A DNA stretch of 55,599 nt, taken from assembly GCF_014879935.1 (NCBI RefSeq), contig NZ_JACSRD010000176.1:1-55599 (forward strand), read 5' to 3'. Each line of letters begins with the position of its first letter. The first letter of the stretch is position 1. Both the position numbers and the translations under genes were made by a program. The DNA comes from Prosthecobacter sp. (GTDB lineage Bacteria > Verrucomicrobiota > Verrucomicrobiia > Verrucomicrobiales > Verrucomicrobiaceae). Shown in pieces: positions 1,724 through 24,017 of the stretch. The notes below the pieces were generated by a model. The model did no database searches. It had not been told where the DNA came from and was given only the letters and a program-made list of their open reading frames with translations.

Positions 1724-1778
1724 CTTCGTCTCGCGAAGCAAAGTAGCCCTCTCGCTCCGCGAGAGGTGCCGACGAAGG
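1724..1778. repeat. GTAGCC palindromic repeat, copy A
   Basis: An 8-bp perfect hairpin (CCTCTCGC, loop TCC, GCGAGAGG; 1749-1767) follows the leader AGCAAAGTAGCC. An outer pair of 7-bp arms (1724-1730 and 1772-1778, CTTCGTC/GACGAAG) encloses it. Copy B at 3377-3408 has the same leader with compensating changes in the stem. The repeat lies between two leftward genes. Confidence 0.65.
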
Positions 1779-2518: not shown

Positions 2519-2952
2519 GAGGTAATGTTTTCCTGGATGCGCTTGCCCATGCTCACCCGCTGCTCAACAGCGTAGCCGAGTGATGCATAGAAGGCCGCCA
2601 CCGACTCGTTGCCAGCCACGATCTGGAGATTGATCTTCATGCATCCCCTCTCGGTCAAAGCGCGCTCGGCGTGCGACACCAACAGCGATCCAATGCCCTG
2701 CATTCGATGCTCAGGATGCACCGCCACGGAGTAGATCCAGCCGCGATGGCCGTCGTAGCCGGCCATGATGGTGCCGATGACTTGGCTCGCGTTGAGGGCG
2801 ACAAAGAACAACCCATCATCGGCCGCCAATTTCTTGTCGATGACCAGCGATGGCTCGTTGTGGGCCGATTCGTAGCCGAAGACGGCATTCCACAACGCGA
2901 TGACTTGATCGCGATGAACTGGGTTGTCGAAGAGTGTGATCGTGGTGTTCAT
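2515..2952 (-). CDS. GNAT family N-acetyltransferase
   Basis: A 145-residue single-domain acetyltransferase using acetyl-CoA. The acetyl-CoA pyrophosphate loop is RMQGIG (residues 83-88) after the strand WIYSVAVHPEHR, and the C-terminal motif NESVAAFYASLGY is the usual motif B. Layout and length resemble the YpeA-like group, but the acceptor is unknown. It is translationally coupled on both sides by 4-base overlaps, with the NTF2-like gene upstream and the HAD gene downstream, so the three proteins are probably made together. Confidence 0.85.
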   Translation of the reverse strand: MNTTITLFDNPVHRDQVIALWNAVFGYESAHNEPSLVIDKKLAADDGLFFVALNASQVIGTIMAGYDGHRGWIYSVAVHPEHRMQGIGSLLVSHAERALTERGCMKINLQIVAGNESVAAFYASLGYAVEQRVSMGKRIQENITS

Positions 2953-3311
2953 GTCAGTGTCCTTTGGCCGGAGATAAATCGCGCCGTGACGATCTTCCCA
3001 TGGCGCACCTCGTAAATCGCCACCAGCTCGATCTTGCCCGTGCCATCCGGGAACGTGCGGGTCACTTCCTCATGGTCGATGACCACACTTCCCGTCACGG
3101 CGCGATGAATGAGCCGCGCGTGGAGATAGGGATCGCTCAAACGCGCGGTCATGCGCTCCCTCAACTGCGCGGCACCGCTGCACAGTAACGTATCAGGATA
3201 CTCAAACTGCTGCACGTCCTCCGCATACGTCGCCATCAACCCCTCGACGTCGCGGGCGTTGTAGGCATCGAGCTGGCGCTGGACGATGGATTCGGGTGTT
3301 GAGGCTGACAT
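2949..3311 (-). CDS. NTF2-like / SnoaL-like domain protein
   Basis: A 120-residue cytoplasmic protein of the nuclear transport factor 2 fold. It opens with a helix carrying VQRQLDAYNARDVEGLMATY and continues with strands ending in ELVAIYEVRHGKIVTARFI, both typical of SnoaL-like proteins annotated as steroid isomerase-related or of unknown function. It is the first gene of the NTF2-GNAT-HAD operon and has a possible promoter with a palindrome directly upstream. No catalytic residues can be assigned with confidence. Confidence 0.8.
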   Translation of the reverse strand: MSASTPESIVQRQLDAYNARDVEGLMATYAEDVQQFEYPDTLLCSGAAQLRERMTARLSDPYLHARLIHRAVTGSVVIDHEEVTRTFPDGTGKIELVAIYEVRHGKIVTARFISGQRTLT

Positions 3312-3376: not shown

Positions 3377-3408
3377 CTCATCTTGCAGAGCAAGATGGCT
3401 ACTTTGCT
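3377..3408. repeat. GTAGCC palindromic repeat, copy B
   Basis: On the minus strand the leader AGCAAAGTAGC precedes an 8-bp perfect hairpin CATCTTGC-TCT-GCAAGATG (3379-3397). The TAG in the leader is the stop codon of the alpha/beta hydrolase gene, so the repeat overlaps its 3' end. There is no T-tract, so it is probably not an intrinsic terminator. A neighbouring 10-base palindrome CGGGTACCCG lies at 3357-3366. Confidence 0.65.
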
Positions 3409-5411
3409 GACGCGCGTTCGATGATCCTCGTGACATCCTCCTCAAGCAGAAAACCCTCTGTCTGGAGTTTCTTGGCAGCATCCGTGAGTCGCGAGAGATA
3501 GTCGGCAGGCGTCGGATAGCGTTCTTCGAGGGAGGGACGCGGGTCGCCGGTCTTTTCGCGTTCGGCTTTGGTTTTGGCGAAGGGGATGAACATGCCATCC
3601 AGCGGCGAGAGCATCGTTTCGGCACCGACTTGAGGGGAGCGGAGGTTCCAGCCGGTGTAGGTGCCGAGAGGGACGGCGATCTCGGGGAGCACGATGCCGC
3701 TAGTTTCATTGCCGTCGGCATTCACGGCGGGCACGAGCGTATGGAATGGCTTGCCGATTTTTGGCGGGATGATGTCGGCGATGCCTTCGCTTTGGAAACG
3801 CGGGCCGAAGTCGAGTCGCGGAGGCTGGTAGGCATGGGTGGGCAGGTTGTGGCCGGGAATCTTCGGAAACTGCGATTTCCAGGTGTCAAAGGACACGAGC
3901 GTTTGGTCGGCGAGACGCGGGTGACGGCTCGGCGGCGGTGCTTTTCCGCTTTTCACCCACTCGACGAGATGCGTGAGCATCGCACGCAGCACGGGGCCGC
4001 GATCATCGAGCGTGTTGCGCGGTTGCTGGCAGATGCCGGGTGTGCCGTCGCTCTTGCCGAGATGTTCGGCACCGGCCACGAGATACACACGCACGTCGTC
4101 GGGCAAGGTGAGGTCAGTTTTACCTTCGACATCGGTGTGCAGCAGCGAGGCAGCGCGGCTCCAGTATTCGGTGGAGGATTGCGTGAAGAGCATGCGCGGC
4201 GTGTGGCCGGACTTCCGCGAACGAGCGAGCGAGTCGCCGGACTCGCCGGTGATGGAATCGGTTTGCGGCAGCGGAGCGAGCGGGAAGAACTCGCTGCCGG
4301 AGAGATGGCCTTCGTGCTGCGTGCCATACTCCGTGCTCATGCGGAAGCGATGGTTGAACATGCCTTTGCCGGAGCCCGCGACGTGGATCAAGGCACCGTC
4401 AAAGACGATGCGGCCCTGCTCATCGCCATTCAGGCCTTCATAGAGGAAGTGATGAATGACACGGCCCGACTGCGAGATGCCGAAGACGCAGGCTTTTTGC
4501 AGCGCGTCGGCCAGCGGATTCGTTTTGGCATCGCCGTGACGAAAGAACGCCACGCAGTCACGCATCGCGGTGAGGCCGAGACCGGTCACGCGAGGCTCTT
4601 TGGCCGTGTAAACGAGGTCGTAGAGCCAGCCAGGCCGCAAACCGGCCTTCACATAGACGTGCGTGGCATCGGGAATGAGCTTCTCATTCTCCCAACGTCC
4701 AAACGCCCACTCCTCACGCGGCACCTCAATGCCATCCACGCCGCGATGCGGCCGCATCGTGAGCGTGGCGTCGGCATTGTCGAGACTCACGGATGGAAAC
4801 GCAGCGCCGATGCCCCACGGGCTCCACGAGAAGGCCCGGCTGAAGACTTTCTCCGTGCTCGTGATCTCCAGATGCGCTTTGCCGGTGATCGTCTTGACAT
4901 TGTCCGTCGCGATGGGGAGACCGCACAGCAGCCGCTGCGTGTCATCCGCCTGCACCTCCCCGTTCCAACCGCACCACAGCACGGAGAAACCCTGCTTCAT
5001 GAGAAAGCCATGGCCGGCATGCGCCTCCGTTTTCGGATCGTTCGTGCGCTCGCCATCGTTGAAGGTCCACAGCGCCAGCATGTTGCCGCGATTGTTCACG
5101 TCGTAGAGCAGCACGCCGTTGCCCTTGGTCGCATCGACCGGCTTCAGCAGAAAGAAGTCCGTCCAACTCTCCACCATGCCGCGAGCATTGCGCGGAGCCC
5201 GCTGGAGGTCGCTGATGCGGGCGTTGGCCCCGTTCGCGGGCTCAGTCTCGATGAACATCCGGCCCTTGAGGCGCTCGTAGGCACCCGAGGGGCCGAAGGC
5301 TTTGCCTGCGGCAAACGAGGAGCGCTCGCTGATCTCGATGCGCGTCACCTCGGCATGAGCGAGAGTGGCCAGGCTGAAAATGAGGCTGAGTCGGAAATGG
5401 CGGAACATCAT
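3399..5411 (-). CDS. Secreted alpha/beta hydrolase domain protein (Abhydrolase_10-like)
   Basis: A 670-residue exported hydrolase of a family annotated only as alpha/beta hydrolase domain-containing protein. A Sec signal peptide (FRLSLIFSLATLAHA) is followed by the N-terminal strand EVTRIEISERSSFAAGKAFG that marks the family. The nucleophile elbow GISQSGR is near residue 315, and a late AGAEH segment could supply the histidine region. Length agrees with family members. The frame opens earlier at a TTG, but ATG at 5411 or 5408 gives a clean signal peptide. The stop codon lies in palindromic repeat B. It is divergent from the PPC-domain gene across about 150 bp. The substrate is unknown. Confidence 0.8.
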   Translation of the reverse strand: MMFRHFRLSLIFSLATLAHAEVTRIEISERSSFAAGKAFGPSGAYERLKGRMFIETEPANGANARISDLQRAPRNARGMVESWTDFFLLKPVDATKGNGVLLYDVNNRGNMLALWTFNDGERTNDPKTEAHAGHGFLMKQGFSVLWCGWNGEVQADDTQRLLCGLPIATDNVKTITGKAHLEITSTEKVFSRAFSWSPWGIGAAFPSVSLDNADATLTMRPHRGVDGIEVPREEWAFGRWENEKLIPDATHVYVKAGLRPGWLYDLVYTAKEPRVTGLGLTAMRDCVAFFRHGDAKTNPLADALQKACVFGISQSGRVIHHFLYEGLNGDEQGRIVFDGALIHVAGSGKGMFNHRFRMSTEYGTQHEGHLSGSEFFPLAPLPQTDSITGESGDSLARSRKSGHTPRMLFTQSSTEYWSRAASLLHTDVEGKTDLTLPDDVRVYLVAGAEHLGKSDGTPGICQQPRNTLDDRGPVLRAMLTHLVEWVKSGKAPPPSRHPRLADQTLVSFDTWKSQFPKIPGHNLPTHAYQPPRLDFGPRFQSEGIADIIPPKIGKPFHTLVPAVNADGNETSGIVLPEIAVPLGTYTGWNLRSPQVGAETMLSPLDGMFIPFAKTKAEREKTGDPRPSLEERYPTPADYLSRLTDAAKKLQTEGFLLEEDVTRIIERASAK

Positions 5412-5547
5412 GGTCAAAGGCGGCTTGTCACGGCCAAGGCAGAGAACGTCTGGCCGGCAGGAGGCTTTCCTGCGTCCAGAATTGCCTCATTTGTTTTTCG
5501 ATCCCCTCGAAACCAAGGAATGGTGAAACAGATCGGCCATCTCGATG

Positions 5548-7874: not shown

Positions 7875-10800
7875 ATGATTCGTCCCTCCGTCCTTTTTGT
7901 CGCTCTTGCCGCTGCTGCCGCCGCGGAGGAGCCGCTCAGCTTCAATCGCGACATCCGCCCGATCCTCTCGGAGAACTGCTTCGCGTGCCACGGCTTTGAT
8001 TCGAAGAAGCGCGAGGCCGAGCTGCGGCTCGACACGCCGGAAGGTGCCTACACGGCGAAGGACGGCGCGTTTCCCATCAAACCGGGCGATCTGGCGAAGA
8101 GCGAGGTCTGGCAGCGCATCATCACGACCGACGAGGACGACCTCATGCCGCCGCCGAAGTCGCACAAGAAGCTCACGCAGAAGCAGAAGGACATGTTGAA
8201 GCTCTGGATCGAGCAAGGCGCACCGTATCAGAAGCACTGGGCGTTTGAAAAGCCGCTCGAAACGTCCGGCACGAGCATCGATGCGCTGCTCGCCGCGCGT
8301 CAGGCGAAGGACAAGCTCGCCTTCGCCGATGAAGCAGACAAAGAGACGCTCATCCGCCGCGTGTCGTTCACCCTCACCGGTCTGCCGCCGACGCTGGCGG
8401 AGGTGGATGCCTATTTAAAAGACGGCAACTACGAGGCGATGGTGGACCGCTACATGAAGTCGCCGCGCTTTGGCGAGGAGATGGCGCGGCATTGGCTGGA
8501 TGTGGCGCGCTACGCGGACACGCACGGCCTCCATCTCGACAACGAGCGCAACATGTGGGCCTACCGCGACTGGGTGGTGCGGGCCTTCAATGAGAACCTG
8601 CCCTTCGATCAATTCACCGTGTGGCAGATCGCGGGCGACCAGCTCCCGAATGCCACGCGCGATCAACTCATCGCCACCGGCTTCTCGCGTTGCAATGTGA
8701 CCACCAGCGAAGGCGGCGCGATCGACGAGGAATACCGCCATCTTTATGCGGTGGACCGCGCGGCGACGCTCACCACCGCGTGGCTCGGCCTCACGGGCGG
8801 CTGCGCGCAGTGTCACGATCACAAATACGATCCGCTCACCACGGAGGAGTTTTATTCGCTCTACGCCTTCTTCTACAGCAGCGCCGATCCGCCGATGGAC
8901 AAGAACATCAACACCACCGAGCCCTACCTGCGCCTGCCGACGCCCGAGCAGCGAAAAGCACTCGAAGTCGCGACAAAGGCCGAGGCGGATGCTCTGAAGC
9001 AGCTCGAAGACTTCATCAAAGAGGTCGCTTACACGGACCCGGCGATGGTCAAACCCTCAGCGGCGGCACAGACGACCACTCAGGTGATCTTCGATGATGA
9101 ATTCGCCCTCGGTTCCGAGACACGGAATACCACGCGCAATGCCAGCGCCTGGCTGAAGGAGCCTGCGTTCAGAGCAAAGTCAGGCCAGCGGGTGTTGCAG
9201 CTCAGCAACGGCCAGTTCAGCCAAGAGACCATCACGCCGACGCTTCAGCCGATCATTTTGGGTGATTCGCCACGAGTCAGCGCCTGGGTGCGGCTTGATC
9301 CGCTAAACACGCCGGGAGTGATTAGCATTGAGCTCAATGGCCGCCGCATTCTGTGGGGCGATGCCAAGGTCTTTGAAGCGACGACCTATGGAAAAGAAGA
9401 TGCCGTCACCGCCGGTCCGCTGCCAAAGCCAGGCGTGTGGACTTTGCTGAGCTTTGATCCTGCCGCGCTCGGCCTGAAAGGGGGAGGTCGCATCAGCAGC
9501 ATCGCCGTGCAGCAGGTCGGTGGCACGGTCGTGTGGGATTTGTGCGCCGTCACTAGCCAGATCTCGTCGTCGGCAGATTTGCTGGCGTCGTTCACGGCTT
9601 GGTGGAAAGCGGTGAGCGCGGGCAAAAAGCAGCCGACCGAGTTGCCTGGGGCGCTGGTGGGCACTCTGATGACTGATCCCGCCAAGCTGCGCCAAACCCG
9701 CCTAGCCGCCTTGAAGGCAAAATTGCCAAAGCTGGAAGCCAATCCGACACCTGAAGCCACTGCTGCCTTTGTCAAAAAGCAGGCCGATGCCGAACAAGAA
9801 GCCAGTGCTGCTGAGGTCAAAGAACGCGAGGCTTTGTTGCACTTCTACCTCGCCCGCATCGTCCACCCGCTCTCCGATGAACACGCCAACCACCGCACAG
9901 CTTGGGAGGTGGCACGAGTCACTCGTTCCGCGGCCGATTTGGCCATTCCGGGCACCTTCATCTTCCGTGATGAAGAAAAGCCGCGCGACACCTTCATCGC
10001 CATGCGCGGCGCCTACAACAAACTCGGCGACAAAGTCGAGCCCACCACGCCCGCCGCGTTTCATCCGCTGAAGAAAACGGGTGCTCGCGCCACGCGTCTC
10101 GATCTCGCGCAGTGGCTTGTGGCTCCTGAAAACCCGATGACGGCCCGAGTGACCGTGAATCGCTTCTGGCAGCAGGTTTTCGGCATCGGTTTGGCGAAGA
10201 CGAGTCACGACTTCGGCTCCCAGGGCGAGCCTCCGAGCCATCCTGAGCTGCTCGATCATCTCGCGGTCACTTTTCAAAAGAGCGGCTGGAATGTGAAACA
10301 GCTCCTCAAAGAGTTTTTGATGACCAAAGCCTTCAAACAGGCCTCGCCTGTCGAATCGAACCTCCTCAGCCTCGATCCCGAAAACCGTCTGCTCGCCCGC
10401 GGGCCGCGTGTGCGGCTCGATGCCGAGCAGATCCGCGACAATGCGCTCTTCGTCAGCGGCCTCATCAATCTCGAAATGGGAGGTCGCGGCGTGCGCACCT
10501 ACCAGCCGCCGAACATCTGGGAGCCCGTCGGCTATGGCGACAGCAACACGCGCTACTACCTGCAAGACCACGGTCCGTCCCTCTATCGCCGCAGCCTTTA
10601 CAGCTTCCTCAAGCGCACCGCCCCGCCGCCCTTCATGAGCAACTTCGACGCGCCCAACCGCGAGCAAAGCTGCACCCGCCGCGAACGCAGCAACACCCCG
10701 ATGCAAGCCCTCCAGCTCCTCAACGACGTCCAGCACTTCGAAACCGCGCGAGCGCTCGCCGAACGCGTCATCGCCGAAGGCGGCTCAGAAGACGAAAAAC

Positions 10801-11042
10801 GCCTCCACTGGCTCTTCCGCATCGTTTTGAGCCGCAAACCGGACGCGAAGGAGTTTTCGATGCTCACCGCCGCCTTGGCGAAACAACGGGCGCTTTATCA
10901 AAAGAACCCACAAGCCGCCGAGAAAGCGATTTCGGCCGGAGAATCCACTCCGAAGAAAGTTGCCGCACCTGCTGAAACTGCCGCGTGGACCTTGATCGCG
11001 AATTTGGTGCTCAACCTCGATGAAACAGTCACCCGCAACTAA
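7875..11042 (+). CDS. Secreted planctomycete-type cytochrome with DUF1549 and DUF1553 (PSCyt1-PSD1)
   Basis: A 1055-residue exported haem protein. A Sec signal (MIRPSVLFVALAAAAAAEE) is followed by the PSCyt1 haem site CFACH at residues 35-39. The DUF1549 (PSCyt2) region carries VSFTLTGLPPT and RHWLDVARYADT, with a second CxxCH, CAQCH, near residue 310 in GGCAQCHDHKYDP. A jelly-roll-like middle segment may bind carbohydrate. The C-terminal DUF1553 (PSD1) contains NRFWQQVFGIGL, LLARGPRVRLDAEQIRD and the NTPMQALQLLND motif. It is paired with a DUF1501 gene 96 bp downstream, the standard PVC arrangement. Known for the family: always two haem sites, predicted redox role, substrate unproven. An ATG three codons upstream exists. 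Confidence 0.9.
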   Translation: MIRPSVLFVALAAAAAAEEPLSFNRDIRPILSENCFACHGFDSKKREAELRLDTPEGAYTAKDGAFPIKPGDLAKSEVWQRIITTDEDDLMPPPKSHKKLTQKQKDMLKLWIEQGAPYQKHWAFEKPLETSGTSIDALLAARQAKDKLAFADEADKETLIRRVSFTLTGLPPTLAEVDAYLKDGNYEAMVDRYMKSPRFGEEMARHWLDVARYADTHGLHLDNERNMWAYRDWVVRAFNENLPFDQFTVWQIAGDQLPNATRDQLIATGFSRCNVTTSEGGAIDEEYRHLYAVDRAATLTTAWLGLTGGCAQCHDHKYDPLTTEEFYSLYAFFYSSADPPMDKNINTTEPYLRLPTPEQRKALEVATKAEADALKQLEDFIKEVAYTDPAMVKPSAAAQTTTQVIFDDEFALGSETRNTTRNASAWLKEPAFRAKSGQRVLQLSNGQFSQETITPTLQPIILGDSPRVSAWVRLDPLNTPGVISIELNGRRILWGDAKVFEATTYGKEDAVTAGPLPKPGVWTLLSFDPAALGLKGGGRISSIAVQQVGGTVVWDLCAVTSQISSSADLLASFTAWWKAVSAGKKQPTELPGALVGTLMTDPAKLRQTRLAALKAKLPKLEANPTPEATAAFVKKQADAEQEASAAEVKEREALLHFYLARIVHPLSDEHANHRTAWEVARVTRSAADLAIPGTFIFRDEEKPRDTFIAMRGAYNKLGDKVEPTTPAAFHPLKKTGARATRLDLAQWLVAPENPMTARVTVNRFWQQVFGIGLAKTSHDFGSQGEPPSHPELLDHLAVTFQKSGWNVKQLLKEFLMTKAFKQASPVESNLLSLDPENRLLARGPRVRLDAEQIRDNALFVSGLINLEMGGRGVRTYQPPNIWEPVGYGDSNTRYYLQDHGPSLYRRSLYSFLKRTAPPPFMSNFDAPNREQSCTRRERSNTPMQALQLLNDVQHFETARALAERVIAEGGSEDEKRLHWLFRIVLSRKPDAKEFSMLTAALAKQRALYQKNPQAAEKAISAGESTPKKVAAPAETAAWTLIANLVLNLDETVTRN

Positions 11043-11055
11043 CGCCACTGACTCA

Positions 11056-11116
11056 CCACAGAGGTCACGGAGGAACACAGAGTTCTGATCTCTGTGCCTC
11101 TCTGTGAACTCTGTGG
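11056..11116. repeat. CACAGAG-type hairpin repeat between PSD1 and DUF1501 genes
   Basis: CCACAGAG (11056-11063) pairs with CTCTGTGG (11109-11116). An inner ACACAGAG/CTCTGTG pair forms the top of a long hairpin. This repeat vocabulary is frequent between genes of Planctomycetes and Verrucomicrobia. It lies inside a probable operon and may lower or stabilise the downstream message. A degenerate half-copy occurs at 18769-18798. Confidence 0.65.
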
Positions 11117-11138
11117 TTAATCCCAGCTCCCTTTTCTC

Positions 11139-12599
11139 ATGAATCCTCTCTTTAAATCCCATCTCCTCCAAACGCGCCGTCAGTTCTTCGGCCATAGCGG
11201 CCTGCGCCTTGGCGGGCTCGGTTTGACGTATGCGATGGGCCGGGAGGCTTTCGCGGCGTCCAAAACGCAGGTGCATGAGCCGTTGCCGGGGCTACCGCAC
11301 TTTGCGGCGAAGGCGAAGGCGGTCATTTACCTGCACATGAACGGTGGGCCGTCGCAGCTCGATACTTGGGATTACAAACCGGGCTTGCAGCAGTGGTATG
11401 ACAAGGACCTTCCCCCGAGCGTGCAGGGCGGGCAGCGGCTGACGGGCATGACGAGCAAGCAGGCGCGTTTTCCGGTGGCTCCGAGCCTTTTCAAGTTCGC
11501 GCAGCATGGGCAGTGCGGGCGCTGGGTGAGCGAGTTGTTGCCGCACACGGCGAAGCACGTCGATGACATCGCTTTGATCAAAACGGTGCACACGAACGCG
11601 ATCAACCACGACCCCGCGTGCACCTTTGTGATGACCGGACGCGAGGTGCCGGGCTTTGCGAGTCTCGGCTCGTGGCTGGCCTACGGTCTCGGCAGCGAGA
11701 GCAATGATCTGCCGGCCTTTGTGGTGCTAACGCCGACGTGGAGCGCGAAGGCGATGGCTCAGGCGCTTTTCACCCGCATGTGGAGCAGCGGCTTTTTGCC
11801 GAGCCAGTTCAGCGGTGTGGCGCTGCGTGCCGTGGGCGATCCGGTGCTCTATATTCAGAATCCCGATGGCGTCTCGCCTGCCAATCGTCGTGCGATGCTC
11901 GACACGCTGGCGCAGATGAACGCGCACAGCTTTGAGAAATTCGGTGATCCGGAGATCCAGGCGCGCATCTCGCAGTATGAGATGGCCTTCCGCATGCAGA
12001 CGAGCGTGCCGGAGCTCGTCGATCTGAAATCCGAGAGCCAGGCCACGCTCGACATGTATGGCCCCGAGGTGCAGAAGCCGGGCACCTTTGCCGCAAGCGC
12101 CCTCCTCGCGCGTCGTCTCGTCGAACGCGGCACGCGCGTGGTGCAGGTGCTGCATCGCGGCTGGGACCAGCACGGCAATCTGCCGAGCGACATCCGCCTC
12201 CAATGCCGCGACACCGACCAGCCCATCGGCGCTCTTTTGACTGATCTCAAACAGCGCGGCCTGCTCGACAGCACGCTCGTCATTTGGGGCGGTGAATTTG
12301 GCCGCACGGTCTATTCGCAGGGCGGTCTCTCGCAGACGAACTACGGTCGCGATCATCATCCGCGGAATTTCTGCATGTGGATGGCCGGCGGCGGCATCAA
12401 AGGCGGCACCAGCTACGGCGAGAGCGATGACTTCAGCTACAACATCGCCACCGACCCCGCGCACCTGAACGACATCAACGCCACGATCTTAAACCAGTGC
12501 GGCATCGACCACGAGCGCCTCAGCTACAAATTCCAAGGGCTGGATGCACGACTGACCGGTGTGGAGAGGCAGCATCCGATCAAGGAGATCATCGGGTGA
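11139..12599 (+). CDS. DUF1501 domain protein with Tat signal
   Basis: A 486-residue member of the DUF1501 family, which is structurally related to the alkaline phosphatase/sulfatase superfamily but has no proven activity. The N-terminus has a twin-arginine signal ([19 protein letters not shown]), so it should be exported folded. Family landmarks are [20 protein letters not shown] near residue 65, [30 protein letters not shown] and a C-terminal LNDINATIL segment. The [13 protein letters not shown] and GRDHHP blocks contain the conserved His and Asp residues expected to bind metal. It follows a PSD1 cytochrome gene and overlaps the next lipoprotein gene by 4 bases. Confidence 0.9.
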
Positions 12600-19909: not shown

Positions 19910-22900
19910 TCAACGCCACATCTCCCGCAGAACCGGCTGGTTGCTGCGCAGGGGGTGATGCGACTGGTAGAGCTTCAGGCGTTTTTTGGATTCATTGGTC
20001 TCCTCGCTGTCCTTGGGAAGCGAGTCGAGATGGCGTTGTTCGAGCCTGATGGCTTCAGCGTAGGCCTGCGCCTCCGCATGAGCCGCAGCGTGAACAACAA
20101 GGACGCGATACATTGTGCCGTTGTCATCCCCGATTACGAGCCTAGCCAGTTGAAGAGCTTTTTGCCCGTCACGGATCGACGCATCAGGGCAGGTGGCCAA
20201 CAGCCAGGCGAGGTCGAGAAAGTGCAAGGTGTAACCTGGAGTCGCCTGCATTCCCTTCTCATAGTCAGCGAGTGCGGCGCGATAATCTCCCTTGGCGTGG
20301 TGGGCACGTCCGCGAAGGTCAAAGTTCACTCCTTCTGGCGAGGACTTCACGGCGATGTCCAGATCAGCGATGGCTTCATCGTATCTGCCCATTTCATACA
20401 ACGCCATGCTGCGAGCACGGCGAATGTTCTCGTTGGAAGGGGCAAGCCGCAAGGCTTCCTGGTAGCCTGTGAGTGCTTTCTCATATTGTTTGAGAGCTGC
20501 GCAGGCATTTGCCCGGTTCAGATGAAATCCCATCTCGCCTGGATGAATCTTGATCGCCTCATCATAGACATGGATTGCTTCCTCATAGTCGCCTCTGTCC
20601 CATTTGGCATTAGCCGCCTGGAGGAACTCTTTTTTCGTCTTTGGCGACCCTGAGAGCTTGTTGATCAGCTCGTATTCAAAGGACAAATCAGCGAATCGGC
20701 CATCTCCAATCTTTGTATTGGTCACAGTCAATACGCCCATCAGCCCGCGAGACGTTCTGAACAGGCATGACACCGGCCACTGGCCCTGAATGAGCGTCTT
20801 CTCGTCATTGGAAACCACCAGATCACTTGCCAGTTCCCGTGCGCGATCGGCGGAGAACCTCCATCGTAGGTCGGTGTCAGACCAAGCACTGAAAGCGCAT
20901 TGATGGGGGCGGATGTAAAGCGTGTCAGCCTCTACGCGGACGCTGAAATCAAATCCACCTGCCGCATTGGCTTTTTCAAGGTCTGCCTTGATCTCCTCGT
21001 CCTTGGCTGCTCCTGCCTGACGGACTTCGAACACCTTGTTTCCTGCAAACTGGAAGTGCGGCTTTATTCCGGTTGCTGAGATACGGAGTGTTTTGCGGTT
21101 AGGGTCGCTAAACACAGGTTCGCTCTTTGAGTGCACCGTTGGATCTGTTGGCTCGCCTGAGCGATTCTCCACCTCCTTTGGCCGGGCTGTCGGCTGCGAA
21201 TCGGAGTTCATTGAGGCCTGGGTGGCTACTTCGGCAGGCGTGAACCCAGCGCGGAAGGGGCCATGGATTTGGATCTTGCCATCACTGGTTAGCATCATCC
21301 TTGTTTCCCCAGGCTGGGCTACGAGTTGCTTGCCGGGGCCAGATGTGAGGCTCGGCAACTGGGTGAATAGGAGCTTGCCAGACTGGGCATTCCAACGGGC
21401 GTCGCCGCTGCTGACATGGGTTGGCTTGCCGTCAATGATAGGCTGCCCCTGATAGGTAACTGGGCCTGATGCTTCGATGTCGCCATTGGGCTTTCGCTCC
21501 ACCCGATCCGCGAACAGAAAGCCTCTATCGAGAATCTCTACCGACTGACGACCTGTCCGAGGGGTAGGGGGAGCTGGCTCTCGTGCTGCAGGTTGTTCCA
21601 TCACCGCCACCACAGCTTTCTCCTTTTGCATGGAATCGCTTCCAGCGGGAGCCCTGGAAGTGTCTGGCACTTTAGACTGCTTCGACCACTCGACATGAAC
21701 CGCATTGGGCACAGGTGGCAACAAAGACGCCACGCCGCGGATGATGAAGAACAACGTAGCTACAATGATCAGGCTCCTAGTAATAATCGGCCACCAGCCA
21801 CGCGGTTTGGCATTTGGTGGAGGCATTGCGGTTGTTTGTAGCAGGCTGGGATTAAGTCCCAACTTTCGGAGGATCAAGGCACTCCACATGAGCCAGACCG
21901 CGCCAGCCAGTGCAACGACGCTGGCTGGGAGCCAATAGGTATTCACGCTGCCCCTAATGGCACTTCTGACCACCATCTCTGCCTTTCCAGCCCCGGTGTA
22001 AAACATCGTCACTGCCCCAAGCGCACAAAGTCTGAACCAGCATTTGAACCACTGGACACTGCCTGTCGCCGCCCAAGATGCCGCATGTTTTCGCGCGAGG
22101 AGGAGGCCCGACCATTTCTCCAAGAACGCTCTAGATGGCCTCAATATCCAATACGCCAGCACCAGCACAATACCGCTGCCGAGCCATTCCTCCCAGCAAG
22201 GGCGAAGCCCATAAACCACAGCCCACACGATTGCGAACCACCACGGAGCAAGCAGAGCCATCGCTGCTTTGTTGGCGGTGATGACGTTCGAGGGCGCAGG
22301 AGCAGATTGATTGGAGTCAGCGGCCGCCGCCTCCACCTGCGTGCGAAACTCCGCCGCCGTGGCGAATCGCAGCTCGGGTGTCTTCTCCAAGGCTTTGAGC
22401 ACGATCTCATCAATGCGGATGTCCACCTGCACGCGTTTCGAGGGCGGGGTGATGTCTTCCTTTGGACGCTCGCCAGTCAGCATTTCGTAAAGCACCACGC
22501 CGAGGCTGTATATGTCCGCGCGATGATCGGCGGTGCCGTTGGCTTGCTCGGGGGCCGCGTAGTCGGGGGTGCCGAGCGGGAACGTAGCCCGACTTTCCAA
22601 AGTCGGGTCTTCTACGGCCGAGGGAACGAACTCGGAAGTTCGTTCTACGATCTTCGCGATGCCGAAGTCGGCGATCTTTACCGTGCCCGCTTTGTCGATG
22701 AGCAGGTTCTCCGGCTTGATGTCGCGGTGGACGATGCCGTGGTCGTGGGCGCATTGCAGGGCTTCACAGACGGGCGGCACGATGCTGAGCGCTTCCTTCG
22801 GTGTGAGTCGCTTGGTTTGGAGCAATTGGCGGAGGTTCACGCCATCCACGAACTCCATGAGCAGGTAGTAGAAGCCGCCCGCCTGCCCGAAGTCATGTAC

Positions 22901-23260
22901 ACCGACGATATTCGGGTGATTCAGCACCGCGAGTGCATGAGCTTCCTTTTCAAACCGCGCGGCAAACTGCGGATCGTCCGCACGCTCCGGCGCGAGCAGT
23001 TTCAGAGCGACGAGGCGATTCAGCGACTTCTGCCGTGCCTTGTAAACCACGCCCATGCCGCCGCGGCCGAGGCATTCGAGGATTTCGAGCTGCGGGAAGC
23101 GGGGAGCGAGTTCTTCGGGCGTGAGCGGCGGTGCCGCAGGCGTGGCATCGTCAGGCTGGGTGGGCTGCATCAGCTCAGCCATGAGGTCTTTGGCCGAGAG
23201 CCCCTCCAGCAGGCCCTGAGGGCGTGCGGTGGAGTCCGTGGTGGTGGAAGAATCGCTCAT
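19910..23260 (-). CDS. Membrane-spanning Ser/Thr protein kinase with TPR repeats
   Basis: A 1116-residue receptor-type kinase. Start is the ATG at 23260, leaving a 43-bp gap to the sigma-factor gene. The N-terminal Pkn-type domain has the G-loop GRGGMG (65-70), ATP-binding Lys87 in VALK, the catalytic loop HRDIKPEN with Asp180 and Lys182, and DFG at 198-200. The activation segment from DFG to APE is about 41 residues. Roughly residues 205-227 of it are encoded by two palindromic DNA repeats. Several hydrophobic segments follow (WFAIVWAVVYGL, GIVLVLAYWIL, ITRSLIIVATLFFIIRGV), then a linker and about five TPR motifs (AIHVYDEAIKIHPGE, KALTGYQEALRLAPS). It probably signals together with the adjacent ECF factor. 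Confidence 0.9.
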   Translation of the reverse strand: MSDSSTTTDSTARPQGLLEGLSAKDLMAELMQPTQPDDATPAAPPLTPEELAPRFPQLEILECLGRGGMGVVYKARQKSLNRLVALKLLAPERADDPQFAARFEKEAHALAVLNHPNIVGVHDFGQAGGFYYLLMEFVDGVNLRQLLQTKRLTPKEALSIVPPVCEALQCAHDHGIVHRDIKPENLLIDKAGTVKIADFGIAKIVERTSEFVPSAVEDPTLESRATFPLGTPDYAAPEQANGTADHRADIYSLGVVLYEMLTGERPKEDITPPSKRVQVDIRIDEIVLKALEKTPELRFATAAEFRTQVEAAAADSNQSAPAPSNVITANKAAMALLAPWWFAIVWAVVYGLRPCWEEWLGSGIVLVLAYWILRPSRAFLEKWSGLLLARKHAASWAATGSVQWFKCWFRLCALGAVTMFYTGAGKAEMVVRSAIRGSVNTYWLPASVVALAGAVWLMWSALILRKLGLNPSLLQTTAMPPPNAKPRGWWPIITRSLIIVATLFFIIRGVASLLPPVPNAVHVEWSKQSKVPDTSRAPAGSDSMQKEKAVVAVMEQPAAREPAPPTPRTGRQSVEILDRGFLFADRVERKPNGDIEASGPVTYQGQPIIDGKPTHVSSGDARWNAQSGKLLFTQLPSLTSGPGKQLVAQPGETRMMLTSDGKIQIHGPFRAGFTPAEVATQASMNSDSQPTARPKEVENRSGEPTDPTVHSKSEPVFSDPNRKTLRISATGIKPHFQFAGNKVFEVRQAGAAKDEEIKADLEKANAAGGFDFSVRVEADTLYIRPHQCAFSAWSDTDLRWRFSADRARELASDLVVSNDEKTLIQGQWPVSCLFRTSRGLMGVLTVTNTKIGDGRFADLSFEYELINKLSGSPKTKKEFLQAANAKWDRGDYEEAIHVYDEAIKIHPGEMGFHLNRANACAALKQYEKALTGYQEALRLAPSNENIRRARSMALYEMGRYDEAIADLDIAVKSSPEGVNFDLRGRAHHAKGDYRAALADYEKGMQATPGYTLHFLDLAWLLATCPDASIRDGQKALQLARLVIGDDNGTMYRVLVVHAAAHAEAQAYAEAIRLEQRHLDSLPKDSEETNESKKRLKLYQSHHPLRSNQPVLREMWR
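22583..22650. repeat. Two GTAG palindromic repeats inside the kinase coding sequence
   Basis: CCCGACTTTCCAAAGTCGGG (22588-22607) is a 9-bp stem flanked by CGTAG and CTACG. GAACGAACT-N4-AGTTCGTTC (22624-22645) is a second 9-bp stem, followed by TACG. Read on the coding strand each unit begins GTAGAA. They are translated in frame as VERTSEFVP and VEDPTLESRAT within the activation loop. Confidence 0.75.
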
Positions 23261-23303
23261 GCCTGTGTTCTGATGAATCGACGGCGAATGCTTACACCCA
23301 TTT

Positions 23304-24017
23304 TTATCCACCGAGTGCCTCAAAGAGGATTTGCATCTCGTCGGTCACGCTGACGTCATCCTCCAGAGTGCCGGCAATTTCCGTCTTCATGCACTGGCGG
23401 AGCTGCTTTTTCATGCGGTGCAAAGCCACACGGAAGGCTTCAATGCTCATCCCACAGGCCGTCGCCGCCGACCCCTGATCTCCGTAGGCCGAGTCTCCGG
23501 TGAGGAACGGCCGTGCCTGGTCAAAAAAGCGCACTTTGCCTCCCGACAGACATTCCGCACGCAGGGCCTCCAGGCTGCGCTCCAGCACCGTGAGCGCCCA
23601 TTGACGGTCAAAAGCGGCATCAGGTGAGATCACGCTGCCGTCGCAAAACTCGGCCACGCTTTCCTCATCCATGGAGATGGTCTGCAAGCCTGCGCCCCGC
23701 TTCAAACTAAGCTGCATCTCCCGCTGGCGTGAGACAAAGTGCTTCACGGAACCGAGCAGATAGGAGCGAAACCGCCCCCGCTCCCGGTCCGCCGAGTCCA
23801 TGCTGCCTCCTTGGAGCATCATGGCAAAAAACGCATGGCTCATGTCCCGCGCCGCGTCCGCATCCCGCAGCACATGACGGAGGTAAGCCACCACCGGCTC
23901 GTAGTAGGCATCGCAAAGGTCCGCGAGCGCCCGCCGCCCATCTTCCGAGTCCGCCTTGGCAAGGCAGACCCGCGTCCATCGGGTGGTGTGAAACGGCGAG
24001 GGCGGAGAGACGGGCAT
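23304..24017 (-). CDS. ECF-type RNA polymerase sigma factor linked to a Ser/Thr kinase
   Basis: A 237-residue sigma-70-family factor. Start is ATG 24017, giving MPVSPPSPFHTTRW and omitting 47 unlikely upstream residues. Region 2 is recognisable in CDAYYEPVVAYLRHVL, then AARDMSHAFFAMML and RFRSYLLGSVKHFVSRQRE. Region 4 has the helix-turn-helix AATACGMSIEAFRVALHRMKKQLRQ. The TRWTRV opening and long inter-domain linker are typical of PVC ECF factors encoded beside Pkn kinases. The kinase gene follows 43 bp downstream in the same direction. Known biology of such pairs suggests kinase control of the factor by phosphorylation; that is inference here. No anti-sigma gene is visible. Confidence 0.85.
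   Translation of the reverse strand: MPVSPPSPFHTTRWTRVCLAKADSEDGRRALADLCDAYYEPVVAYLRHVLRDADAARDMSHAFFAMMLQGGSMDSADRERGRFRSYLLGSVKHFVSRQREMQLSLKRGAGLQTISMDEESVAEFCDGSVISPDAAFDRQWALTVLERSLEALRAECLSGGKVRFFDQARPFLTGDSAYGDQGSAATACGMSIEAFRVALHRMKKQLRQCMKTEIAGTLEDDVSVTDEMQILFEALGG

Follow-up and report, generated by a model that had tools for sequence, protein, structure and literature searches.

How do palindromic DNA repeats come to be translated inside the activation segment of a protein kinase, the main regulatory element of such enzymes? The question is raised by a stretch of 55,599 nucleotides (nt) from Prosthecobacter sp. (contig NZ_JACSRD010000176.1, here termed the window), in which a Hanks-type Ser/Thr kinase gene (19910..23260, minus strand) contains two hairpins between the codons for its DFG and GTPDYAAPE motifs. 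We consider it very probable that an inverted pair of repetitive extragenic palindromes (REPs) of the GTAG type took over most of the variable activation segment of this PknB-like kinase and is translated there, that several REP families have entered the same loop in related kinases, and that such loops have been exchanged or overwritten. The first-pass annotation of the window had proposed that a dispersed repeat family was absorbed into a protein at this place, which is borne out, and copies are also found in other genes and outside open reading frames (ORFs; contigs C16 and C204 of the genome). The phenomenon is wider than was then proposed, with several palindrome families occupying one loop.

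The inverted hairpin pair and its kinase

Both palindromes are present where they had been annotated in the kinase gene. The hairpin at 22588-22607 reads CCCGACTTT-CC-AAAGTCGGG and that at 22624-22645 reads GAACGAACT-CGGA-AGTTCGTTC, each with arms of 9 nt that are 100% complementary. Sequence, hairpin scan and alignment together define a REP inverted pair of 65 nt (22584..22648, minus strand), arranged as GTAG-hairpin 1-spacer-hairpin 2-CTAC, the coding strand of which is GTAG-AACGAACTTCCGAGTTCGTTC-16 nt-CCCGACTTTGGAAAGTCGGG-CTAC between DFG and GTPDYAAPE. Unit 1 (22624..22648, minus strand; GTAGAACGAACTTCCGAGTTCGTTC) encodes VERTSEFV and is assigned to a family, termed A, by the GTAGAACGA pattern considered below. 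Unit 2 (22584..22607, plus strand; GTAGCCCGACTTTCCAAAGTCGGG), recognized by hairpin scan, genome search and alignment, is inverted and encodes PTLESRAT on the coding strand, its CTAC tag giving A-T. The spacer between the hairpins (22608..22623) is of fixed length and fast changing in 11 aligned family-A kinase loops, with a mean nucleotide identity of 44% over alignment columns 25-41.

The two units had been read as tandem copies that both begin with GTAGAA and that insert the related peptides VERTSEFVP and VEDPTLESRAT. In the 11 aligned loops, however, conservation falls on the outer tags, GTAG and CTAC, which have decayed in some, whereas the internal GTAGAA of the second unit occurs in only one, the window copy, and hence the units form an inverted pair of GTAG-tagged hairpins, or REP dimer, in which the likeness of the two peptides is mostly accidental. 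A palindrome of 20-40 nt with an unpaired GTAG at one end describes both the 25-nt and the 24-nt unit, although the final G of the GTAG in the window's unit 1 is able to pair with C25. The dimer thus consists of GTAG-type REP elements and is REPIN-like. A chance palindrome was also considered and was ruled out by the rarity of such hairpins, their dispersed copies, their enrichment in the loop, co-varying stems and codon identity. With arms of at least 8 nt and loops of 1-6 nt, 143 hairpins were found in 855,599 bases of the Prosthecobacter genome, and CCCGACTTTNNAAAGTCGGG, with up to two mismatches allowed, occurs at two places in 7.74 Mb, both of them kinase loops.

The start codon of the kinase was taken as the ATG at 23260 (MSDSS...), within an ORF (19910-23323, minus strand) that is open from 23323. 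Pfam Pkinase matches residues 80-295 of the ORF (1.4e-49), running straight across the REP site, and the kinase domain is followed by C-terminal TPR repeats; the best Foldseek matches to the kinase model are to PknB of M. tuberculosis. Among 48 sequences (the window kinase and 47 of 79 relatives, which are mainly from Verrucomicrobiota) K87, E106, D180, N185, D198-G200 and P237-E238 are invariant and R179 is nearly so, and the window kinase has all of the Hanks-type (PknB-like) hallmarks, namely the invariant Lys and Glu, HRD, Asn, DFG and APE. It does not belong to the PASTA kinases, as PknB_PASTA_kin matches the kinase part only and scores 288.6 bits versus a cut-off of 450, and it carries TPR repeats instead.

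The in-frame translation between DFG and GTPDYAAPE is likewise as first annotated. The pair encodes VERTSEFVPSAVEDPTLESRAT, residues 205-226 (V205-T226), and the conserved GTPDYAAPE segment (residues 230-238; 22547..22573, minus strand; from sequence and kinase alignment) follows three residues past the insert, such that the activation segment from DFG to APE spans 41 residues. The suggestion that the insert could be free of Ser and Thr does not hold, since it contains three of each. In an AlphaFold2 model based on the 48 sequences the predicted local distance difference test score falls below 50 in two stretches only, the N-terminus (1-39) and residues 202-227, which correspond to the insert, and the latter is predicted to be disordered.

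Family A across the genome

In 39 pieces (780 kb) of the genome, which exclude the window and a second kinase copy on contig C148 and which come from seven contigs known from Y1 or REP matches and are thus not random, the tetramer that most exceeds expectation next to hairpin arms is GTAG (17 seen versus 2.16 expected). With Y1-bearing pieces also removed (33 pieces, 660 kb, 98 hairpins) the numbers are 11 versus 1.61, GTAG ranking first among the tetramers seen four or more times, and with all pieces, including the window and C148, they are 23 versus 2.4. Searching the 7.74-Mb genome (G000) with the family-A pattern GTAGAACGA-N8-12-TCGTT yields 20 matches, which represent 17 sites, and the reversed control yields none. 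Across 48 genomes from the genus, 29 have matches to this pattern (258 in total) and 12 have matches to the control (16 in total), and while single matches may be due to chance, 17 of the 48 genomes have at least four and one (G012) has 39. A pattern for the GTAGnnCGnACTT variant gave one weak match versus three in the control. Inverted family-A dimers are present in the window and on C16, C21, C60, C111, C129, C182, C204, C234, C238 and C148, and single units exist as well, for example at C31:100421 and on C131.

The count inside and outside genes that the first-pass annotation had called for places 11 of the 17 family-A sites in frame inside long ORFs. These encode two kinases (C148 and C154), four DUF1553/PSD1 proteins (C21, C129, C182 and C238), a molybdopterin oxidoreductase (C60), a DUF1592/1588 protein (C103), a ThuA/cytochrome c protein (C31:132412), a glycosyltransferase (C234) and a protein that matches PPC and TIG ahead of the insert (C111). 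Those on C16 and C204 are in no open frame of at least 150 residues, that at C31:100421 is close to the end of a sulfatase ORF, that on C193 provides the stop codon of an S41 peptidase ORF, and the remaining two are on C131, near a contig end, and on C165. Family A is therefore not mainly extragenic; such a location describes most GTAG REP families but is not part of their sequence definition, and 'extragenic' is a poor description for this one.

In unrelated proteins the family-A REPs are read in several reading frames. In the DUF1553 proteins the match is at, or no more than four residues from, one motif (e.g., HKLIVMSEAY followed by RRTS). These proteins represent a second recurrent site (MSxxY followed by RRTS), seen at L162, L169/L170, L175 and L180 (C21, C129, C182 and C238 of the same genome) and in three further cases from other genomes (L300, L301 and L305), of which L305 is very close to L180.

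Several REP families in one kinase loop

Kinase loops were compared among 79 relatives sampled from genome contigs (best 80 of a longer list), the 77 kinase matches of the Prosthecobacter genome itself, sampled as 30 loci and 40 fetched stretches, and 28 further kinase loci from the 48 genomes of the genus. A readable loop was obtained for 163 of 177 loci, 146 of them distinct, the remaining 14 being L026, L038, L235, L255, L258, L267, L268, L270-L274, L276 and L277. In two of these, L026 and L235 (near a contig end), the kinase is 95-96% identical to that of the window over query residues 1-207/208 and is broken just past DFGIARIVH by other sequence with stops.

The 9,609 nt of loop sequence contain 29 hairpins with arms of at least 8 nt, borne by 19 of the 146 loops, versus 11 in 102,607 nt of the remaining kinase region, a 28-fold higher density in the loop, and with arms of at least 7 nt there are 41 in the loop (27 loops) versus 49 in the rest. 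Hairpins within DFGxAK itself (L042, L054, L241 and L260) result from coincidence of codons and, by the definition of the loop used, lie outside it. A hairpin with an arm of at least 7 nt is present in the loop of 12 of the 28 genus loci. Three of the 11 longer-armed hairpins outside the loop are tagged and lie about 80-100 codons before DFG in L015 and L019; these kinases, which also bear a loop REP, have the GTAG-tagged hairpins GTAGAAGCGGCG and GTAGAAGCGACG some 240-300 nt before DFG.

The hairpins in the loops fall into several families. Family A (GTAGAACGA) occupies the loops of the window kinase, C148, L001, L005, L009, L015, L037, L318, L319, L324, L327 and L328, with C148, the second kinase of the same genome, having the same pair as the window. 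Family B (GTAGCCNTCTCGC) is found in L002, L006, L017, L040, L234 and a third kinase of the genome, C184; family C (GTGAAACAGACA) in L007 and L213; and family I (GTAGCCCGCGAG, GTAG-tagged) in L215, L221 and L236. Six more are each known from a single locus, D (L019), E (L039), F (L043), G (L048), H (L079, a named planctomycete) and J (L010). Families B, C, D and H also have copies elsewhere in genomes where they occupy a kinase loop. For C, 111 matches (versus one in the control) were spread over 23 of the 48 genomes of the genus, H was found at four places outside the kinase, and D was found as a core with GTAG tag at one place elsewhere in its genome, where the tagged form that D has in its kinase was not found at a second place. 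In the window itself, family B is represented by two REPs away from the kinase, one solo (1743..1766, plus strand; GTAGCCCTCTCGCTCCGCGAGAGG) between ORFs 287-1741 and 1811-2518, of the family also seen in loops L002, L006 and L040, and one found in the hairpin scan (3379..3402, minus strand; GTAGCCATCTTGCTCTGCAAGATG) between ORFs 2949-3311 and 3399-5417. The TAG of the GTAG in the latter is the stop codon of the 672-residue ORF 3399-5417.

Twenty-one REP loops were listed for the position of their tags. In 20 of them the start of the left tag lies 3 nt (families A and I), 7 nt (B and D) or 10 nt (B, C and H) past DFGxA[KR], the one loop giving no tag being that of family J, and in none is a tag in the frame that reads its TAG as a stop. 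Family I starts at the same nucleotide as family A, and it may have a common origin with it and changed stems. In the 93 related loops 24 have a REP and 69 were labeled as having no recognizable one, the latter including L014, L183, L184, L004 and L220, which resemble decayed REPs (L063 and L068 were not grouped). The 69 rows without a REP have DFG-APE distances of 24-55 residues, with a median of 39, and in the other kinases of the Prosthecobacter genome the loop is shorter, at a median of 31 residues (53 rows), with no such hairpin pair among the loops listed for them. The existence of palindrome-free loops of similar length might suggest that the window has an ancestral protein loop that is palindromic by chance or codon bias. 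We regard this as extremely improbable, as it is contradicted by copies in unrelated genes, by several families at one place, by their scattered distribution on the kinase tree, and by the codon identity and covariation considered below.

Origin and meaning of the translated loop

The kinase tree (95 rows, loop excluded) has many weak forks and bootstrap values that had not settled, and its family labels were set by hand. Family A needs seven changes on this tree, at least four of which are forced by starred branches (6.8 with shuffled labels), and family B needs six, at least four of them forced; an earlier tree of 96 rows, labeled by a regular expression that missed L006 and L009, likewise scatters the labels. 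C148 (A) is sister to L007 (C) at 100/87, L037 (A) groups with L059 (no REP) at 100/97, and the row nearest to the window kinase is L213 (C), which is 96% identical over 235 columns outside the loop. For C148 and L219, the latter having the same sequence as L007 in the tree columns, DNA identity is 88-100% along the 480 nt that lead up to DFG, drops to 68-73% within the loop and is 78-95% between +120 and +360. L037 and L059 are 85-98% identical upstream and 58-73% in the loop, with identity dropping from 98 to 68% downstream. By this pattern the loops have been replaced, and the 23-residue segment is not the clean present-or-absent insertion that had been envisaged for an alignment of orthologs.

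Each family might have had its REP loop captured on a single occasion or on a few, after which the whole loop passed between paralogs by recombination through the conserved HRD-DFG and GTP-APE flanks, and we hold this to be almost an even matter, falling slightly on the doubtful side. In its favor, family-A loops share boundaries and length in scattered kinases (DFG-APE is 41 residues in 11 of 12 loci, with 42 in L327), family I has the same start nucleotide, C148 and L219 have nearly identical flanks around different REP families, and most of the compared pairs resemble each other more closely within the kinase core than beyond it. The constant length of family A suggests, from the sequences compared, either a common origin and movement between kinases or a tight length constraint. 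In addition, one genome (G119) has four family-A-loop kinases, three within 9 kb (contig C25, 131818-140685) and a fourth on C22, a cluster where exchange between paralogs could be studied. On the other hand, hairpins and spacer travel apart, as the window and C148 have identical hairpins but spacers that are only 29% identical, and in families B, C, D and H the start is 7 or 10 nt past DFGxA[KR], which is the other frame.

What is conserved within the loop bears on whether DNA or protein has been under constraint. For all pairs of the 11 family-A loops, at positions with the same residue, the same codon is used at 90% in hairpin 1, 75% in hairpin 2 with its tag, 43% in the spacer, 72% in HRD-DFG and 60% in GTP-APE, and a codon excess is clear for hairpin 1 only. 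Unrelated codons for the same residues had been named beforehand as the sign of an ancestral loop; on this point hairpin 1 favors inserted repeats (90% versus 72% in HRD-DFG) and hairpin 2, at only 75%, does not add to it. The stems pair in 97.2% of cells, and 6 of 16 pairs have changed on both sides (21 such cells) versus 3.8 pairs and 7.7 cells in shuffles and at most one and four in slid controls, where part of the excess over the slides arises by construction and the sequences are few and related. The number of further pair types does not stand out (10 versus 8.3, reached by 50 of 500 shuffles). The hairpins could have been kept for a role in DNA or mRNA, such as pausing, mRNA stability or chromosome binding, with the protein merely tolerant. 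The codon identity of hairpin 1 and the compensatory changes would agree with such a role, which we nevertheless think quite unlikely, as both are explained by recent copying or by conversion from other REPs, hairpin 2 has no codon excess, and 69 of 93 related loops have no recognizable REP. Codon identity and covariation would fit REP copying and turnover as well as they would selection for the hairpin.

An adaptive use is also conceivable, in which REP-coded loops are selected for phospho-acceptor or docking residues and diversify regulation, the CTAC tag, read as Ala-Thr, placing a Thr at position -4 of GTP. This Thr is present in all seven of the family-A loops counted, coded by CTAC or by a decayed TCAC, the loop has been occupied repeatedly, and K87, E106, D180, N185 and D198 are invariant in the 48 sequences. 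However, a Ser or Thr at -4 is as common in loops without a REP (46 of 69) as in those with one (16 of 24), and the site has therefore been retained, not created, with nothing gained. Moreover, spacer residues are not conserved (21% identity) and the same REPs occur in unrelated proteins in several frames. We thus regard selection of this kind as unlikely, while direct regulatory use of a REP-coded loop is possible.

The genome has 27 Y1_Tnp matches, one below the Pfam cut-off. One of the loci examined, L104:1325-2250 (G000 contig C157), encodes a Y1 protein of 218 residues with four family-B tags, on both sides and in alternating orientation, and three hairpins in the scan. It scores 67.4 bits against REP_Tyr_transpos, below the cut-off of 80, and a second locus, L096, scores 81.8 bits, above it. 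L104 is a REP-associated tyrosine transposase (RAYT)-like gene, as judged by its sequence, and a candidate REPtron for family B, the occupant of other kinase loops, whereas no transposase was found near the family-A REPs. In other species GTAG and hairpin are recognized together by a Y1 HUH transposase (TnpA-REP/RAYT) and cut in vitro, as described in the text available from PMC8266576. At another locus (L100:1015-2670; G000 contig C3, about 9823-11478) a glycosyltransferase ORF is split in two by an in-frame Y1 domain, and REP-like palindromes (GCCGACGAATCGTCGGC) recur on both sides, 654 nt apart.

The likeliest explanation overall is a permissive, disordered loop that has been repeatedly entered by mobile hairpins and exchanged among kinases. 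In this scheme RAYT-type Y1 transposases would have placed the REPs, and a dimer that came to occupy most of the variable part of the activation segment is read in frame. Because the stretch between DFGxAK and GTPxYxAPE is predicted to be disordered and has no consensus in the subfamily, in-frame occupation would be survivable there, with an effect on the kinase that is probably near neutral, and insertions elsewhere in the catalytic core would be purged. REPs of several families would have entered the loop in this way, and loops would be exchanged or overwritten among kinases, with recombination between paralogs spreading them.

Several observations weigh against repeated entry by mobile REPs. 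No family-A REP is found beside any of the 27 Y1 matches (1.5 kb on each side, less at eight loci cut by contig ends). Family A is of low copy number, with 17 sites in G000, whereas REPs elsewhere are described at over 100 copies per genome (in the text available from PMC2817692), and a search of 386 genomes of the order with one pattern (up to two mismatches) recovered its kinase-loop form in 7. Families I and E were not detected in 400 kb and 200 kb of their genomes, respectively, or in the GTAG hairpins listed. The pairs inspected (L037/L059 and L236/L027) have no clean empty site but a replacement instead, and the single length of family A and the shared start of A and I fit one early capture with exchange and stem turnover better than they fit many fresh insertions. 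Hairpin 1, at 89% nucleotide identity overall, hardly exceeds HRD-DFG (87%), and hairpin 2 falls below it (72%; 44% in the spacer and 84% in GTP-APE). Finally, the rows compared are related, and hence P values are only indicative and the enrichment figures overstate independence.

As far as their published descriptions extend, intragenic GTAG REPs are already known, and they were most numerous in Opitutus terrae, also of the Verrucomicrobia (Di Nocera et al., 2013; PMC3733652). As in that work, the elements described here are short hairpins with GTAG at one end that form dimers with a variable spacer, belong to several families per genome, include dimer or grouped inserts coding for 20-30 residues, and can provide a stop codon with the TAG of the tag. 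The REPs described there are mostly intergenic, whereas 11 of 17 family-A sites are in genes. They also occur at different sites within one gene category, except in recB of X. campestris and X. oryzae, while here one kinase loop has been reoccupied by different families; in the main text of PMC3733652, as available, the word 'kinase' is confined to the reference list. Rickettsia palindromic elements, which were described earlier, are similarly located between genes and in frame within genes, and recurrent occupation of one loop is not among the properties given in the available text of PMC1950309.

The recurrent capture of several REP families in one kinase activation loop was not found among the papers listed from the open-access literature, supplements excluded. 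The effect of excising an ancient repeat insertion on the activity of guanylate kinase from R. conorii, a nucleotide kinase and not a protein kinase, was reportedly the subject, by its title, of work by Abergel and colleagues in 2006 that PMC3733652 cites. Such an excision would be the nearest precedent for testing an insert of this type in an enzyme.

In its broadest form, the finding could mean that the activation segment is an exchangeable module renewed by REP families, with the core and the phospho-acceptor position kept and selfish DNA making regulatory-loop diversity, although we think that this probably goes too far. What the kinases do present is an activation segment occupied by several families of repetitive DNA, sometimes in enzymes with core DNA that is about 90% identical, and such natural pairs could be used to find out what an activation loop has to contain. 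The loop is a place where repetitive DNA has landed recurrently, and it documents in legible form how non-autonomous mobile DNA turns into protein sequence.

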